Source: Planifilum fulgidum (GTDB lineage: Bacteria; Bacillota; Bacilli; Thermoactinomycetales; DSM-44946). From it: a stretch of 55,567 nucleotides of DNA. Under the pieces are notes generated by a model. It did no database searches and was not told where the DNA came from. It saw only the letters and a program-made list of their open reading frames with translations. Shown here one piece after another: positions 1,352 to 38,301 of the stretch. The stretch is from positions 1 through 55,567 of the forward strand of contig NZ_FOOK01000001.1 in the NCBI RefSeq assembly GCF_900113175.1. Reading direction: 5' to 3'. The position numbers were made by a program, and so were the translations under genes. Each line of letters starts with the position of its first letter. Position 1 is the stretch's first letter.

Positions 1352-2548
1352 TCATTCCTCAAAGGGCCACTTGGGCAGATTCTTGCGGAGCGGTTTGTCC
1401 TTCCGGTACCCCAGCGCATACTCCCCTTGCATGATCTGGTGGATCTCGCGGGTTCCCTCGTAGATGACGGGGGCTTTGGCATTGCGGAGGTAGCGCTCCA
1501 CGGGAAATTCGTGGGAATAGCCGTTGGCCCCGTGAATCTGGACGGCGTCGACGGCGGCCTGAAAGGCGACGTCACAGGCAAACCACTTGGCCAGCGAGAC
1601 TTCCCGCGTGTTGCGCATCCCCCGGTTTTTCATCCAGCCGACCCGGTAGACCAGCAGCCGGGCCGCCTCATACCCCGCCACCATCTTGGCGATCATCTGC
1701 TGCACCAGCTGGTGCCGTCCGATCGGCTTGCCGAAGGTTTCCCGCTCCTTCGCATATTTGACGCTGGCCTCGATGCAGGCCTGGGTCAGCCCCACGGCGC
1801 CTGCGGCCACGGTGAACCGGCCGTTGTCCAGGGCCGACATGGCGATCTTGAAGCCTTCCCCCTCTTCGCCCAGCCGGTTTTCCGCGGGAACCCGCACATC
1901 TTCCAGGATCACTTCCCCCGTGTTGCCCGCGCGGATCCCCAGCTTGTCCTTGAAACCGCGGGTCGTCACGCCGGGAAAGGTCCGCTCCACAATGAAGCAG
2001 GTGATGCCGCGGTGTCCCTTGTCCGGGTCCGTCTTGGCGAAAATCAGGAAATGGTCCGCCACGTCGCAGAGGGAAATCCAGGTTTTGCTGCCGTTTAGGA
2101 TGTAATGGTCCCCGTCCCGAACGGCCCGGGTCTGGATCGCCGCCACATCGGAGCCGGCGTTGGGTTCGGTCAGCCCGAAGGCCCCGATCTTCTCCCCTTT
2201 GGCCTGTGGAATCAGATATTTCTCCTTCTGGAACTCATCTCCCCACTGGAGCAACGTGAGGCTGTTCAACCCGGTGTGAACGGACACGGCGGTGCGGAAG
2301 GCGGTGTCTCCCCGCTCCAGTTCTTCGCAGACGATGGCCAGGGTGTTGTAATCCATCCCCTGTCCGCCGTACTTTTCCGGGATGCAGACGCCCATCAACC
2401 CCAGGTCGGCCAGTTTTTTCAGCAGGCTGGTCTCAAAATGCTGCTTGGCGTCCCACTCCTGAATGTAGGGCATAATCTCCTTGTCGACAAACTTGCGCAC
2501 CATCTTCTTGACCGCCAGTTGCTCTTCGGAATAGGAAAAATCAAACAT
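1352..2548 (-). CDS. Acyl-CoA dehydrogenase (398 aa)
   Basis: FAD-dependent dehydrogenase that introduces a 2,3 double bond into an acyl-CoA thioester and passes electrons to ETF in the cytoplasm. The length is normal for the family. Visible hallmarks are the FAD/substrate-binding signature GLTEPNAGSDVAA (about residues 125-137), the C-terminal four-helix domain with RETFGKPIGRHQLVQ, and YEGTREIHQIMQG, which contains the glutamate-bearing loop. The start at 2548 (MFDFSYSEEQ) is preferred over an upstream in-frame start because GGGGAGGAG lies just ahead. It sits 45 nt downstream of a CaiB/BaiF CoA-transferase, so the pair probably activates and then oxidises one acyl-CoA. Glutaryl-CoA dehydrogenase is possible, but the substrate cannot be fixed from sequence. 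Confidence 0.9.
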   Translation of the reverse strand: MFDFSYSEEQLAVKKMVRKFVDKEIMPYIQEWDAKQHFETSLLKKLADLGLMGVCIPEKYGGQGMDYNTLAIVCEELERGDTAFRTAVSVHTGLNSLTLLQWGDEFQKEKYLIPQAKGEKIGAFGLTEPNAGSDVAAIQTRAVRDGDHYILNGSKTWISLCDVADHFLIFAKTDPDKGHRGITCFIVERTFPGVTTRGFKDKLGIRAGNTGEVILEDVRVPAENRLGEEGEGFKIAMSALDNGRFTVAAGAVGLTQACIEASVKYAKERETFGKPIGRHQLVQQMIAKMVAGYEAARLLVYRVGWMKNRGMRNTREVSLAKWFACDVAFQAAVDAVQIHGANGYSHEFPVERYLRNAKAPVIYEGTREIHQIMQGEYALGYRKDKPLRKNLPKWPFEE

Positions 2549-3790: not shown

Positions 3791-3967
3791 CCCTTCTCCC
3801 CCCTTCGAAAAAAATAGCCGGGCAGGGCGAAGATCGGCGGTCCGGAAACCCTTCGAGGGCTTCTCCTCCCCGCGAGTCTTCGCCTTCCCGGCTCTCACCT
3901 GCGGCTCCTTCACCGGCCGGGTGAATGGACGCAGGTTGGATCGTCGCTTGATTCCGTCGATTTTAAT

Positions 3968-5335
3968 TTATTTGAAGAAAGCGGTTTTGTCAACTCGATG
4001 GCCAGGCTGCCCGTTCCGACGATCGGAAATGAGCACTTCGGTAAAAACGTCCGGAGCAATCCTCGCTTTCCCTTTCATCGCCACATAATATGTGATTCCT
4101 GACACGAAAAGGGATTGTACGGCGGGAAGACCAAAGGGCCAAACATATTGGGTGAGATAACCGACAAGCACACCGGCCACGAGCGCGATCGTCGCCATCC
4201 AGTTCCATCCTTCGTGGTCCATCCACCGCTGTTTGCGGATGAAGTAGAAGTCCACCATCATCACACCGGCAATGGCCGGATAAATCAAGGCGGTCATGTA
4301 AAGAAAATCCGTAAAGTAATCCAATATCCCGGCCAATGCAAGGGCGATGGCCAAAAGCGTGCCAATGAAGGTAAGTGTCGCGCGTCCCTTTCCCGAATTG
4401 ACATTCAGCATGTTCGCCAACGCCAGACCCATACTGTAATTATTGACCAATTGACTGGTCCACGTGGCGAACCACAAAATGGCGAATCCCCAGAAAGGAA
4501 ACCCGAGATTTTCCATGACCTTCACGATGTCCGCTTCGCCAACGCCCACCGCCATGACGGCCCCCACAAAAAACAGTGGAAATCCGACGGCAACAATTCC
4601 CATAGGGATCAGCACATTGTCCTTCACTCTCGGCCTTGCGTAGCGGGTGTAATCGGAGGCGATCACCCACTGGGAAACGTTGACACCGATGACCAAACTG
4701 ACAGCGGCAAGAAAAGACATGGATGGTGTCGGGGACCAATGAATCAACGTCTTCAATCCCGTATTTTTTAGCGCCAGTGCGATTCCCGCTCCAACCAGAA
4801 GAAGACCGGCAGGGACCGCGAGATAATCAGTCCACTTCATCGAGTTATAACCAATGATGGAAGGTAGCGCGAAAATCAATCCCGCAATCACGGTGACGAC
4901 CGCCCAGGGCAACCATTGTTGTTCATAATCGATACCGAGCATCACCGATATCGCATTACCGGCAACGGCGGTTTGCAGAGCCCACCATCCCATGGAAACA
5001 AAAAATATGGTTAAACCGACGACAAATCTCGCCTGATAGGCCCCAAAACTGGTCCGCGCGATTACAGAAGAAGATCTTCCCGTCTTCGCCCCAATATAAC
5101 CCTGAAGAGCGTTCCCCACCCATTGGAAAAAGAACAGCGCGATCAAAAGAACCAGAACGATTTCAGACAAGCCGAAACTTCCCGCCAACGTAGCTCCCAC
5201 CATGAGCACCGGAATGGTAAACTCCAGCCCGCCAAAAATCATGGCAGGGGCCAGCCAATGCTGTCTTTCAGTGGACGGAATGGAGGATAAAGCTTTATCC
5301 TGATCGAGGGACGAATGGCTCCTTTGGCGATTCAT
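3968..5335 (-). CDS. NCS1-family nucleobase/hydantoin:cation symporter (455 aa)
   Basis: Integral membrane importer of the NCS1 (cytosine/purine/hydantoin/allantoin) family with about 12 hydrophobic segments. Family signatures are the N-terminal GGLEFTIPVLMVGATLAGSFG, ARTSFGAYQARFVVGL, and SQWVIASDYTRYARPR in the middle. The C-terminal tail is short and charged. The start at 5335 (MNRQRSHSS) is preferred to the 25-codon upstream extension because a GGGGGGTG site precedes it. It is the last gene of the operon with hyuA and hyuB, which suggests that it imports the substrate of those enzymes, a hydantoin, pyrimidine or related cyclic amide. Confidence 0.87.
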   Translation of the reverse strand: MNRQRSHSSLDQDKALSSIPSTERQHWLAPAMIFGGLEFTIPVLMVGATLAGSFGLSEIVLVLLIALFFFQWVGNALQGYIGAKTGRSSSVIARTSFGAYQARFVVGLTIFFVSMGWWALQTAVAGNAISVMLGIDYEQQWLPWAVVTVIAGLIFALPSIIGYNSMKWTDYLAVPAGLLLVGAGIALALKNTGLKTLIHWSPTPSMSFLAAVSLVIGVNVSQWVIASDYTRYARPRVKDNVLIPMGIVAVGFPLFFVGAVMAVGVGEADIVKVMENLGFPFWGFAILWFATWTSQLVNNYSMGLALANMLNVNSGKGRATLTFIGTLLAIALALAGILDYFTDFLYMTALIYPAIAGVMMVDFYFIRKQRWMDHEGWNWMATIALVAGVLVGYLTQYVWPFGLPAVQSLFVSGITYYVAMKGKARIAPDVFTEVLISDRRNGQPGHRVDKTAFFK

Positions 5336-15313: not shown

Positions 15314-16047
15314 CCCTCAATGTCCTTTCCCGTGATCAGGGCCACCTCTTCCTCCGTCAGCTCCCGGTACTCTCCCGGCTCCAGGGACGGATCGAGCCGA
15401 AGGGGGCCCATGGCGATGCGTTTCAGGTAAACCACCCGTTTGCCCACCGCTTCAAACATCCGCTTCACCTGGTGATATTTTCCCTCGTAGACGGTCACTT
15501 CCGTCTCGGACTCCGGACCGGACGAGCGGATGGCAAGTTCCGCCGGCATCGCCTGATAGCCGTCATCCAGGACGACGCCCCGCCGGAAGGCCTCCACATC
15601 CGCTTCGGTCACTTTTCCCCGGACGAGGGCCACATACCGCTTGGGCACCCGCTTCTTGGGAGAAAGCAGGTTGTGGGCGGTCTTTCCGTCATTGGTGAGC
15701 AGGAGCAACCCTTCGGCGTCCTTGTCCAGCCTTCCCACCGGAAAAGGCTCAAACAGGGCGTGTTCCGGCTCCAGGAGCTGAACCACGGTCTCCGAGATCC
15801 GGTCCGCCGTGGCGGAAACCACTCCGGCGGGCTTGTTCATCATCAGGTAGATAAATTCCCGGTATTGGATGTGCAGGCCGTCCACTTCGACGCGGTCCTT
15901 CTCCGGGTGCACGTGCATCCCCGGGTTTTCGGCCACTTCGCCGTTGATGGTCACTCGCCCCTCTTTGACCAGTTTCCGGATCTCCTTCCGCGTCCCGACA
16001 CCCATCCTTCCGAGCAATTTGTCGAGACGCAGCCGCTTTTCCGCCAT
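15310..16047 (-). CDS. RsuA-family pseudouridine synthase (245 aa)
   Basis: Modifies rRNA by isomerising a specific uridine; RsuA acts on 16S and RluB on 23S rRNA. The N-terminal S4 RNA-binding domain (RLDKLLGRMGVGTRKEIRKL, residues 6-25) is followed by the catalytic domain with PVGRLDKDAEGLLLLTNDG, where the Asp is the nucleophile (about residue 109). The C-terminal part has KYHQVKRMFEAVGKRV. The compact length fits RsuA (16S U516) slightly better than RluB, which usually carries a basic tail. GGAGGCGAGAGG precedes the start. It overlaps fni. Confidence 0.9.
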   Translation of the reverse strand: MAEKRLRLDKLLGRMGVGTRKEIRKLVKEGRVTINGEVAENPGMHVHPEKDRVEVDGLHIQYREFIYLMMNKPAGVVSATADRISETVVQLLEPEHALFEPFPVGRLDKDAEGLLLLTNDGKTAHNLLSPKKRVPKRYVALVRGKVTEADVEAFRRGVVLDDGYQAMPAELAIRSSGPESETEVTVYEGKYHQVKRMFEAVGKRVVYLKRIAMGPLRLDPSLEPGEYRELTEEEVALITGKDIEG

Positions 16048-23273: not shown

Positions 23274-23485
23274 AAGAATCCAGCAAAATTCGGGGATCTT
23301 AAGCCACAATACATCAACGGGCCGCCCGCCCCTTATCCGGTCCGGCTGACGGTTGGCGCATCGCCCCAAGGAAACCGGGAAATCCCCGGAGCCGCTCCAA
23401 AATTACTTCGCAAAAAAATCGGACGAATCATTCCCCTGTCCGTGATATCTATAAATTACATCCCAGATATCGGAGGAATGCGGTG

Positions 23486-24037
23486 ATGAAACTGTACCTG
23501 GCCGTCTATGAATGGGAGCGGCGGATCTGCCTGGCGTCCGACGGGAAAACAGTGTACTCGGCGGGATTTGATCCCGATCGGGTCTTATCCCGTCTGCAGA
23601 AGCTTTTTCCCCACTTTCGGATCGAGTGGGATCCGGCCAAATCGGCAACGATCCTTCGACAATTGGAGGAATATCTTCAGGGAAAACGAAAAGTTTGCGA
23701 TGTCCCCGTCCATTTGCGGGGAACCCGGTTTCAGCTCCGGGTGTGGAACGAAATCCGAAAGATTCCCTACGGTCAAACCGAAACCTATGGAAGCATTGCC
23801 AAAGCTCTGGGGGATCTCCGCCTTTCCCGGGCTGTGGGCGGGGCGGTCGGAACCAATCCCGTTCCCTTGATCATCCCTTGCCACCGCGTCGTCGGCGCAA
23901 GGGGGGGCTGGGAGGTTACTTGGGCGGTCCGGCCGCAGAAAAGCGGCTGCTGGAACTGGAGGGGGGACTGGACCCCTGTGAAACGATCCATCGGCTGGTC
24001 CCCAGGCCAAGAAGAGGAAAACCGCTCATTTAAATAA
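23486..24037 (+). pseudogene. ogt: Methylated-DNA--protein-cysteine methyltransferase, frameshifted C-terminus
   Basis: O6-alkylguanine DNA repair protein. The helix-turn-helix (FQLRVWNEIRKIPYGQTETYG) and acceptor site (PLIIPCHRVVGARGG, Cys about residue 132) are intact. After ARGG the frame reads WEVTWAVRPQ, unlike the family. Another frame continues LGGYLGGPAAEKRLLELEGG, the usual ending, and stops at 24033. The switch lies in a run of seven G at 23901-23907; eight G would restore the normal protein. As read, the last third of the C-terminal domain is scrambled. This may be a true mutation, a phase-variable tract or a sequence error. The start at 23486 has GGAGGA upstream. It is followed by adaA in what looks like an adaptive-response operon. 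Confidence 0.85.
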
Positions 24038-24049
24038 GGAGGGTTGTAA

Positions 24050-24649
24050 GTGAAGATTGGGCCGGACTCCCTGTGGAAGGCGGTCATCCGATGCGACGAG
24101 CGTTATGACGGCTTCTTTTACTACGCGGTGAAGACAACGGGGATTTTCTGCCGCCCCTCCTGCCGATCCAAGACGCCCAAACGGGAAAACGTGGAGTTCT
24201 TTTTCAGCCGGGAAGAGGCGCTTCGAAAGGGATACAAACCCTGCAAACGGTGTCGTCCCGATTTGCAAACATCCACCTACGCCCCCAACCGGGAATGGAT
24301 TCAGGAAGTGAAAAAGCTTCTGGAAACCGAATTCGACAGGCCCTGGACCCTCCAAAGTCTGTCCAAACGGATCGGGATCAGTCCGCACCATCTGCAGCGA
24401 CTCTTCAAAAAAGAAACCGGCGTCAGCCCCAAGCGCTTCCTCGAACGAATTCGCGTGCAACAGGCGAAACGCTTGCTTTTAAGCGGAAACCAAAACGTCA
24501 CGGACATCTGTTACACGGTCGGTTTCAGCAATCCCTCTCGGTTTTATAAGATTTTCCGCGAGGTGGCGGGTTGTTCTCCATTGGAGTTTAAGCGCAGGAA
24601 AAAGGAAGGAGGTTCTTCCGAGTCCATTTCACCGAGGGATGCCGGGTAA
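24050..24649 (+). CDS. adaA: AdaA-type methylphosphotriester transferase/activator (199 aa)
   Basis: Sensor of alkylation damage that accepts methyl groups from phosphotriesters onto a zinc-bound Cys and then activates repair genes. The N-terminal Ada zinc domain has FCRPSC (Cys34, Cys38) and CKRC (Cys65, Cys68). Residues about 85-190 are an AraC-type double helix-turn-helix ending IGISPHHLQRLFKKETGVSP and CYTVGFSNPSRFYKIFREVAG. It lacks the C-terminal methyltransferase domain, which is supplied by the ogt gene upstream, as in the B. subtilis ada operon. The GTG start has GGAGGG 7 nt upstream. Confidence 0.92.
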   Translation: MKIGPDSLWKAVIRCDERYDGFFYYAVKTTGIFCRPSCRSKTPKRENVEFFFSREEALRKGYKPCKRCRPDLQTSTYAPNREWIQEVKKLLETEFDRPWTLQSLSKRIGISPHHLQRLFKKETGVSPKRFLERIRVQQAKRLLLSGNQNVTDICYTVGFSNPSRFYKIFREVAGCSPLEFKRRKKEGGSSESISPRDAG

Positions 24650-25221: not shown

Positions 25222-25247
25222 AAAAAGGCCGGGCGGATGCCCGGCCT
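25222..25247 (-). terminator. Orphan minus-strand terminator beside the sigK fragment
   Basis: AGGCCGGGC (25226-25234) pairs perfectly with GCCCGGCCT (25239-25247); an A5 at 25222-25226 gives a T-run on the minus strand. No minus-strand gene is visible on its right, only the plus-strand sigK fragment that begins at the next base. Confidence 0.6.
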
Positions 25248-25584
25248 ATGCACCTGCGCTCCCTGAAAAAGGCCCGCAAGGACGTGTCGCTGCACGACCC
25301 CATCGGCACCCACAAAGAGGGAAATGAAATCACGCTGATCGATATCCTCGGCACGGACCGGGACGAGGTGGTCGAAACGAATATACAACCACCTGCACAT
25401 CCTCGATCCGCGGGAACAGGAAGTGATCCGAAACCGCTTCGGACTGGACGGAGGCAAGGAAAAAAACCAGTGGGAAATCGCACGGGAACAGGGCATCTCC
25501 CTCTCCTACGTATCGCGGATTGAAAAACGGGCGTTGATCAAGCTTTTTCACGAATTTTACCGGGTGGGACGAAAAAGCCAATAG
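25248..25584 (+). pseudogene. Decayed copy of the 3' half of sigK
   Basis: From 25248 the sequence is highly similar to the 3' half of the intact sigK (37939-38301). It encodes [21 protein letters not shown] and, after a frame break, the [11 protein letters not shown] and [17 protein letters not shown] segments. Relative to sigK about 26 nt are missing near 25380, which shifts the frame, and scattered substitutions are present. The original stop (TAG, 25582-25584) survives. There is no 5' half; the homology begins right after an unrelated hairpin. A terminator follows at 25615. It cannot make a sigma factor. Confidence 0.9.
25549..25576 (+). repeat. sigK 3'-end repeat, copy 1 (one mismatch)
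   Basis: This 28-nt segment matches 38266-38293 in the intact sigK and 46432-46459 beyond the Cmr operon, with a single substitution (GACGA for GACGG). It encodes HEFYRVGRK. Confidence 0.9.
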
Positions 25585-36702: not shown

Positions 36703-37593
36703 CCCTTTTTTCTCATAATTTTATATAATACTGATCTCTATTTTAAAGTTTTTTCGCATCTTGCCAAGGGGCGTGAAAAGGTCGCCATCGCTTCTTGTCT
36801 CCTTAACCCTTTCCATCCCGGGTGGTAGTGAAAGGGACCGGCGGGGATGGGAAAGAAAGGAATCAACGATTCCCGCCTCGGCCTGCGCAACCGGCCACCT
36901 CAATATTGACCTATTTTTTGTCCCCCCGGGCTTTGCTCCATAGGTGATTGAAAGCGAGATAATGCCTGCCCTTTTTTCAAACCGGTTTTTCCACCTGCTT
37001 GACGAACAGGATCCTCCCTTTGGGCTCACCATGCTGAACCCCGGGATCTGACAAACCTCCACCATCACTGTGAGCGGAAGGATGCGGCCGGGCACGTTCT
37101 TGTATCTGCGCCATTTGTATGGGAGCGTTTGACAATCCAGCGCCATTTCATGAAAACAAGGTGCTCCTCCCCCTTTCCGACGGGGCGGACAGGCTGCCTT
37201 TTTTCTTCGCTTTTTCCCGCCCCGGGCCAAAGGGACGCTACCCCCGGTGAAGGAGCCAAAACATCGCACCATCTTTGCAAACATTCGGAGGACTTCAGCC
37301 ATCAACAGCCATCCGTTTTAATTGATTTATCCGGAACAAGTAAACCGAAGATGGTTCTTTGAAGACCTGATTTCCCGAAGGCGGAAACATTTCCGATGAG
37401 ACAAACTGTCTCTCTGCCACTTCCCGATTTGAGCGGGAATCGGTGAAACATTCCCGTTTCTTCGAAGGAAAAAGGCTCCTCCTTTTTTCACAAAAATTGC
37501 TGGATCTTTTCAGGGTACAGGCACGCGCCGGAATCCCTCCTCATATAGGTGATAATACCTGTTTTATTGGAGACGGACCAAGGAGGGATTCTC
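36703..37593. other. Gene-free stretch upstream of sigK
   Basis: About 890 nt without a convincing gene; a 194-codon minus-strand frame is basic and patternless, and I reject it. A mother-cell promoter for sigK is expected at the right end. A CATATAGGT sequence near 37542 could be a sigma-E type -10, but no clear -35 partner was found. Confidence 0.35.
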
Positions 37594-38301
37594 TTGTTCG
37601 GAATGTTTTCCGCTTTGGCCATGCTGATCCGGGAAATCATCGTGTTCGTCTCCTATATCAAAAACAACGCGTTCCCACAACCCCTCTCCGAGGAAGAAGA
37701 GGAAGAGCATCTGAAGCGGATGGCCCAGGGAGACAGAGAAGCCCGCAATGCCCTCATCGAACACAACCTGCGGCTGGTCGCCCATATTGTCAAAAAGTTT
37801 GAGAACACCGGAGAATCCACCGAAGACCTCATTTCCATCGGAACCATCGGCCTGATCAAGGCGATCGAGTCCTTCCAACCCGACAAGGGAACCAAACTGG
37901 CCACCTATGCAGCACGGTGCATTGAAAATGAAATTCTCATGCACCTGCGTTCCCTGAAGAAGGCCCGGAAAGACGTGTCCCTGCACGACCCCATCGGCAC
38001 CGACAAAGAGGGCAATGAAATCACGCTGATCGATATCCTCGGCACGGACCGGGACGAGGTGGTTGAAACGGTCCAAACCAAGATCGAAAAGAATCGAATA
38101 TACAACCACCTACACATCCTCGATCCACGGGAACAGGAAGTGATCCGCAACCGTTTCGGATTGGACGGCGGCAAGGAAAAAACCCAGCGGGAAATCGCCC
38201 GGGAACTGGGCATCTCCCGCTCCTATGTGTCCCGAATCGAAAAACGGGCGTTGATCAAACTCTTCCACGAATTTTACCGGGTGGGACGGAAAAGTAATTA
38301 G
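37594..38301 (+). CDS. sigK: RNA polymerase sporulation sigma factor, pro-sigma-K (235 aa)
   Basis: Late mother-cell sigma factor. The N-terminal pro-peptide is hydrophobic ([20 protein letters not shown]) and precedes [15 protein letters not shown], matching the usual SpoIVFB cleavage region. Region 2 contains [20 protein letters not shown] and [18 protein letters not shown], and region 4 contains [23 protein letters not shown] at 37594 has AAGGAGGG 6 nt upstream. The gene is intact and uninterrupted, unlike B. subtilis where the skin element splits it. The AATGA in the IENEI codons (37927-37931) is the equivalent of the skin crossover site. Its 3' half is duplicated at 25248 and its last codons at 46429. 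Confidence 0.96.
38266..38293 (+). repeat. sigK 3'-end repeat, copy 2 (inside intact sigK)
   Basis: These 28 nt, encoding HEFYRVGRK, are identical to 46432-46459 and differ at one base from 25549-25576. As an attachment site this would be the junction that keeps sigK intact. Confidence 0.93.

Follow-up and report, generated by a model that had tools for sequence, protein, structure and literature searches.

In Bacillus subtilis AdaA and AdaB are described as two proteins (PMC1976550). The locus described here shares with the B. subtilis adaA-adaB operon a split activator AdaA beside a separate AdaB-like methyltransferase and a second ogt elsewhere, and it differs in that ogt comes first and adaA second and in that the ogt half is frameshifted in a run of seven G residues (G7). 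Two further known classes are close to such a gene. Homopolymer-frameshifted pseudogenes of redundant genes are marked by a single-base insertion or deletion within a short mononucleotide run, by conserved flanks and by an intact paralogue, all of which are shared here, and the sole distinctive point of the present case is that the partner gene is independently broken in a sister species. Poly-G contingency loci (e.g. in Neisseria) resemble it in having a run of G in the coding sequence that determines the frame by its length. These loci are characterized in PMC10710837 as typically cell-surface genes, and a Neisseria phasome study gives G≥9 as its cut-off for phase-variable poly-G tracts (PMC5953494). 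The present gene differs in encoding a DNA-repair enzyme with a backup instead of a surface structure, and its run has seven bases compared with nine or more and is unconserved in a relative.

The window analyzed is a stretch of DNA of 55,567 nucleotides, forming positions 1-55567 of contig G000:C1:1-210563 of the present genome (G000), and the features of interest are collected in Table 1. The sequence shows that the seven G residues occupy exactly the positions listed there, within a gene for an ogt/adaB-type O6-methylguanine-DNA methyltransferase. The gene has two candidate start codons, a GTG at 23483 and an ATG at 23486, the latter being better placed behind the GGAGG at 23472-23476. The as-read product is family-like up to PCHRVVGARGG and no further; it runs ...VPLIIPCHRVVGARGG and then continues into a tail foreign to the family, and the remaining family ending, LGGYLGGPAAEKRLLELEG, is encoded in another frame immediately 3' of the G7 run. 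The first-pass annotation had proposed a frameshift in ogt at this run with the acceptor motif left intact, and both points are borne out, as the family frame is lost at the run with its ending in another frame and PCHRVVGA is kept in the as-read translation. By curated cut-offs the as-read product belongs to the O6-methylguanine-DNA methyltransferase family, with a match to PF01035 of 86.6 bits (cut-off 27) that covers profile positions 2-61 of 81 only and a match to TIGR00589 of 80.2 bits (cut-off 46.4) that covers positions 1-61 of 80 only. That the family match ends exactly at the G7 run and picks up again in another frame is beyond chance, and a chance open reading frame is ruled out by the Pfam/NCBIfam matches and by the alignment to the sister genome G002. 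The full domain, with its loop Tyr/Phe and closing K..LL..E helix, is not present in the as-read product, which by its sequence appears to be a broken family member and not a working one.

Table 1. Features of the ogt-adaA locus in the window and of its counterpart in the sister species
Feature	Position	Strand	Basis
ogt/adaB-type methylated-DNA--protein-cysteine methyltransferase gene, as-read frame, 184 aa	23483..24037	+	PF01035 and TIGR00589 matches; frame lost after codon ~141
Acceptor motif PCHR, with the active-site cysteine	23876..23887	+	translation (PCHRVVGA)
G7 run, where the family frame is lost	23901..23907	+	one base short in the alignment to G002
Former ogt C-terminal coding part (end of the active-site loop, last helix), now out of frame	23908..24033	+	sequence and alignment to G002
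adaA, methylphosphotriester acceptor domain and AraC-type activator domain, intact	24050..24649	+	PF02805, PF12833
Frameshifted A run in adaA of the sister species	L003 (G002:C8), about 2510-2530		alignment to window

The elements lost from the protein are strongly conserved in the family. The acceptor motif is invariant as Pro-132, Cys-133, His-134 and Arg-135 in an alignment of 30 sequences. Homologous C-terminal ends were collected from 110 loci, giving 116 ends and 101 after the removal of duplicates. The K..LL..E closing helix is present in all 101 and a G[YF] pair in the loop in 99, the other two having Gly-Glu-Tyr, and the two elements occur together in 99 of the 101. A motif count finds neither the loop G[YF] nor the K..LL..E helix in the tail of the as-read product. 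The best solved relatives, the methyltransferase chains 4bhb and 1sfe, align with it only to residues 141-143, and an AlphaFold2 model built from the 30-sequence alignment has block means of pLDDT between 86 and 98 up to residue 140 and between 37 and 54 beyond. The loop tyrosine (Tyr-139 in MtOGT and Tyr-158 in hAGT) is described as contributing to holding the base in place within the active site (PMC5751216), and the lost tyrosine matches it by position. With the loop and helix motifs lost and the model confidence falling after residue 140, the as-read Ogt product is expected to be inactive.

The family frame of ogt would stop at the TAA at 24031-24033 and the as-read frame stops at the TAA at 24035-24037, and since these are only 4 bases apart and adaA is preceded by its own AAGGAGGG, adaA should be undisturbed. 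The downstream adaA had been annotated as intact and this holds, with matches to both the Ada_Zn_binding domain (PF02805, positions 2-65 of 65) and the complete AraC-type helix-turn-helix domain (HTH_18, PF12833, positions 1-80 of 80) that together mark an AdaA-type activator. The gene order is uncommon. Around 31 adaA matches in 28 genomes, adaA lies upstream of ogt in 19 cases (some of them fused) and ogt is upstream of adaA in two, namely the present genome and G002, and for the other 10 no ogt lies on the same strand within 2.5 kb. The window also contains, about 600 bases beyond adaA, a broken partial copy of the sporulation sigma-K gene that covers its C-terminal half (25246-25584, plus strand), carrying a 26-base deletion and a change of frame and being 94% identical at the protein level over the last 66 residues. 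An intact sigK of 250 amino acids lies 12 kb downstream of this remnant in the same orientation (37549-38301, plus strand). Several relatives (e.g. G015, G017, G004 and G002) have the C-terminal part of sigK only in short open frames of 96-133 amino acids, as if sigK were split there, and the remnant in the window may be a leftover of a sigK-intervening (skin-like) element or of a duplication.

A DNA search of 60 related genomes shows the orthologous ogt-adaA pair to be complete only in G002, a genome of the same genus, with 80% identity over 1300 bases. In G002 the ogt frame runs through without interruption and the place of the G7 is not occupied by a G run; the alignment of the two genes there keeps the codons in register, apart from a single base lacking in the window. 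G002 is the sole relative with the orthologue, and the pattern that the first-pass annotation had named as counting against its proposal, a G7 with the altered tail conserved in all relatives, is thus not what is seen. The adaA gene of G002 has an A run one base longer than that of the window, its frame is lost after ...SPHHLQRLFKK, and the second helix-turn-helix is missing. The genome G001 (67% complete) shows the stand-alone ogt only, and in a contig scan for closer genomes the matches were all to distant relatives, at segment identities of 58% or less.

A second ogt is present in the genome on contig G000:C39. It is complete, with 180 amino acids from its ATG and the full family ending, and lies just downstream of an open reading frame resembling queG. 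Counterparts of this stand-alone gene are complete in G002:C35 and G001:C14, and 59 of the 61 genomes examined have at least one match to PF01035. With a second intact Ogt elsewhere in the cell, loss of the copy in the window would be tolerated.

Substitution patterns bear on the age of the break. The part of ogt before the run has a dN/dS of 0.24 compared with G002 (139 codons) and adaA a dN/dS of 0.20 (128 codons), the median over 67 gene pairs between the two genomes being 0.127; in the ranking of dN among these pairs adaA is highest and ogt sixth. The 18 codons 3' of the run, read in the family frame, have five synonymous and two non-synonymous differences from G002. The post-run codons are still conserved, and together with the dN/dS of 0.20-0.24 this indicates past purifying selection and a break that is either recent or an artefact. 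Longer-term decay of ogt is ruled out by the dN/dS before the run and the codon differences after it.

The same comparison of the two genomes, in which 89 rows (both directions) gave 67 pairs that passed length, identity and codon-position filters, provides a base rate of broken genes, a rough one given the mechanical choice of open reading frames. Rows 101889 and 162095 were flagged and judged to be overlong starts (alignment blocks with gaps), row 132995 to be a spurious open reading frame on reading its translation, and row 165520 to have low coverage (0.59); the rows flagged on the G002 side (127084, 130143 and 131062) come from the same genes, as frames that overlap or are overlong. Apart from ogt and adaA, clear breaks are seen in two multi-hit remnants, one in each genome. 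A gene that is presumably cobT-like is decayed in G002 with several single-base indels (L195 about 15560-16010, G002:C12:35561-36010), its counterpart on the contig of the window being an open frame of 386 amino acids (G000:C1:138039-139199). A remnant that we assume to be larA-like is truncated in G000 (row 118948; L097 about 3900-4260, G000:C1:118900-119260) with single-base deletions compared with G002, and lies at a breakpoint, the G002 sequence being longer there by about 1.7 kb. These remnants indicate that gene decay is real in the genus. In this mechanical comparison no further single-base break in an otherwise conserved gene occurs among the ~65 other gene pairs.

The ogt in the window is best explained, by a modest balance of probability, as a redundant gene that has recently suffered a null mutation, within an alkylation-response operon that is eroding. 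A single-base deletion in the short G run would recently have disabled ogt, the adaB-like half of the ogt-adaA alkylation-response pair; the second intact Ogt would cover the loss, and translation of adaA would continue from the ribosome-binding site of that gene. In the sister species it is the other half, adaA, that would have been lost, independently and through the one-base change in its A run. The ogt-adaA operon, a fast-evolving one, would then appear to be eroding in both species and hence in the genus. We infer that the base change is present in the organism and not just in the assembly, and a relaxed need for the operon would be the reason for the loss.

The main rival is a base-calling or assembly error with the ogt of the organism intact, which is a real possibility and a less probable one. 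The assembly is a draft of 62 contigs and the difference amounts to one base at a G run, which has the look of such a slip, the codons on both sides are conserved with G002, the family frame runs on directly and the flanks have no further decay. The one-base difference in the A run of the G002 adaA is similar and could be an error too. Against an error, comparable single-base breaks are missing from the ~65 other gene pairs, and the assembly does not appear generally poor at homopolymers. Thirty G7 sites were inspected, the one in ogt and the first 29 others listed, and they lie mostly inside long open frames; at none of the 29 is a frameshift positively shown, as judged by the lengths of open reading frames, which cannot prove a gene intact. 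The two genomes were also assembled separately, and their one-base breaks both hit the same operon of two genes. The chance that one G002 break lands on either operon gene is about 2/67, with two breaks seen in G002 (adaA and the cobT-like gene), and this coincidence favors real erosion, as only modest evidence.

Phase variation, in which slippage changes the length of the run and switches Ogt, and thereby the mutation rate, on and off, had been put forward together with sequencing or assembly error as equally likely. The run is a coding homopolymer in which a one-base change toggles between an intact and a broken product, and the near coincidence of the two stop codons spares adaA. However, its seven bases fall short of the G≥9 cut-off, the one relative that has the orthologue lacks the run, and the second intact Ogt would mask a switch. 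The run is also not special in the genome, which has 276 overlapping G7 matches on both strands of its 3,382,342 bases, with the tracts of G9 to G14 sitting elsewhere. Runs of nine or more occur at five places outside the window, the longest being a G14 on C19. A narrow literature search for such a phase-variable case found none. Judged by the length of the tract, its conservation, the redundancy of the gene and the counts of tracts across the genome, phase variation is ruled out as the leading reading; it is improbable, and a plain recent inactivation fits best.

Runs of this kind are scarce around the locus. The window has two G7 matches compared with 27.7 (S.D. 7.8) in dinucleotide shuffles, and contig C1 has seven G/C runs of exactly seven and none longer. 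A first-order model of the contig gives an expectation of about 107 G/C runs of seven, and A/T runs of at least seven are common there (75). We read the scarcity as an ordinary avoidance of long runs. In the genome as a whole, the longest G/C runs are the G14 (L208 1731-1744, G000:C19:44231-44244) and a C11 (L209 1714-1724, G000:C7:99714-99724), both of which look non-coding from their short flanking frames and, compared with the run in ogt, would be the better places to expect length variation.

Recoding, with ribosomes or RNA polymerase slipping on the run to yield some full-length Ogt, is very unlikely. In the as-read frame the site does read G GGG GGC, which fits the X XXY YYZ pattern of a -1 slippery heptamer, and restoring the family frame would require a shift in that direction, but the downstream RNA structure is not stable (z -0.33, 64 of 200 shuffles folding at least as well), inspection by eye finds no ribosome-binding-like stimulator 10-14 bases upstream, and the site is unconserved, G002 encoding the protein without it. 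Programmed frameshifting is ruled out by the fold test and the conservation. There is similarly slight probability that slippage at the G run, in DNA, in RNA or on the ribosome, is reversible and supplies active Ogt as a trickle or in a sub-population of cells, alongside intact AdaA, with the sister species varying AdaA likewise through its A run, which if true would mean that the cell can vary its alkylation repair.

If the recent null mutation is real, it adds another redundant repair gene lost by an indel in a homopolymer, with the mild twist that the inducible alkylation-repair pair has one member broken in each of two sister species, and not the same one. The break in ogt would then have no bearing on the switching of mutation rate. 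The prediction that follows is a genus-wide loss of the inducible methylation response, with the stand-alone second Ogt being kept.
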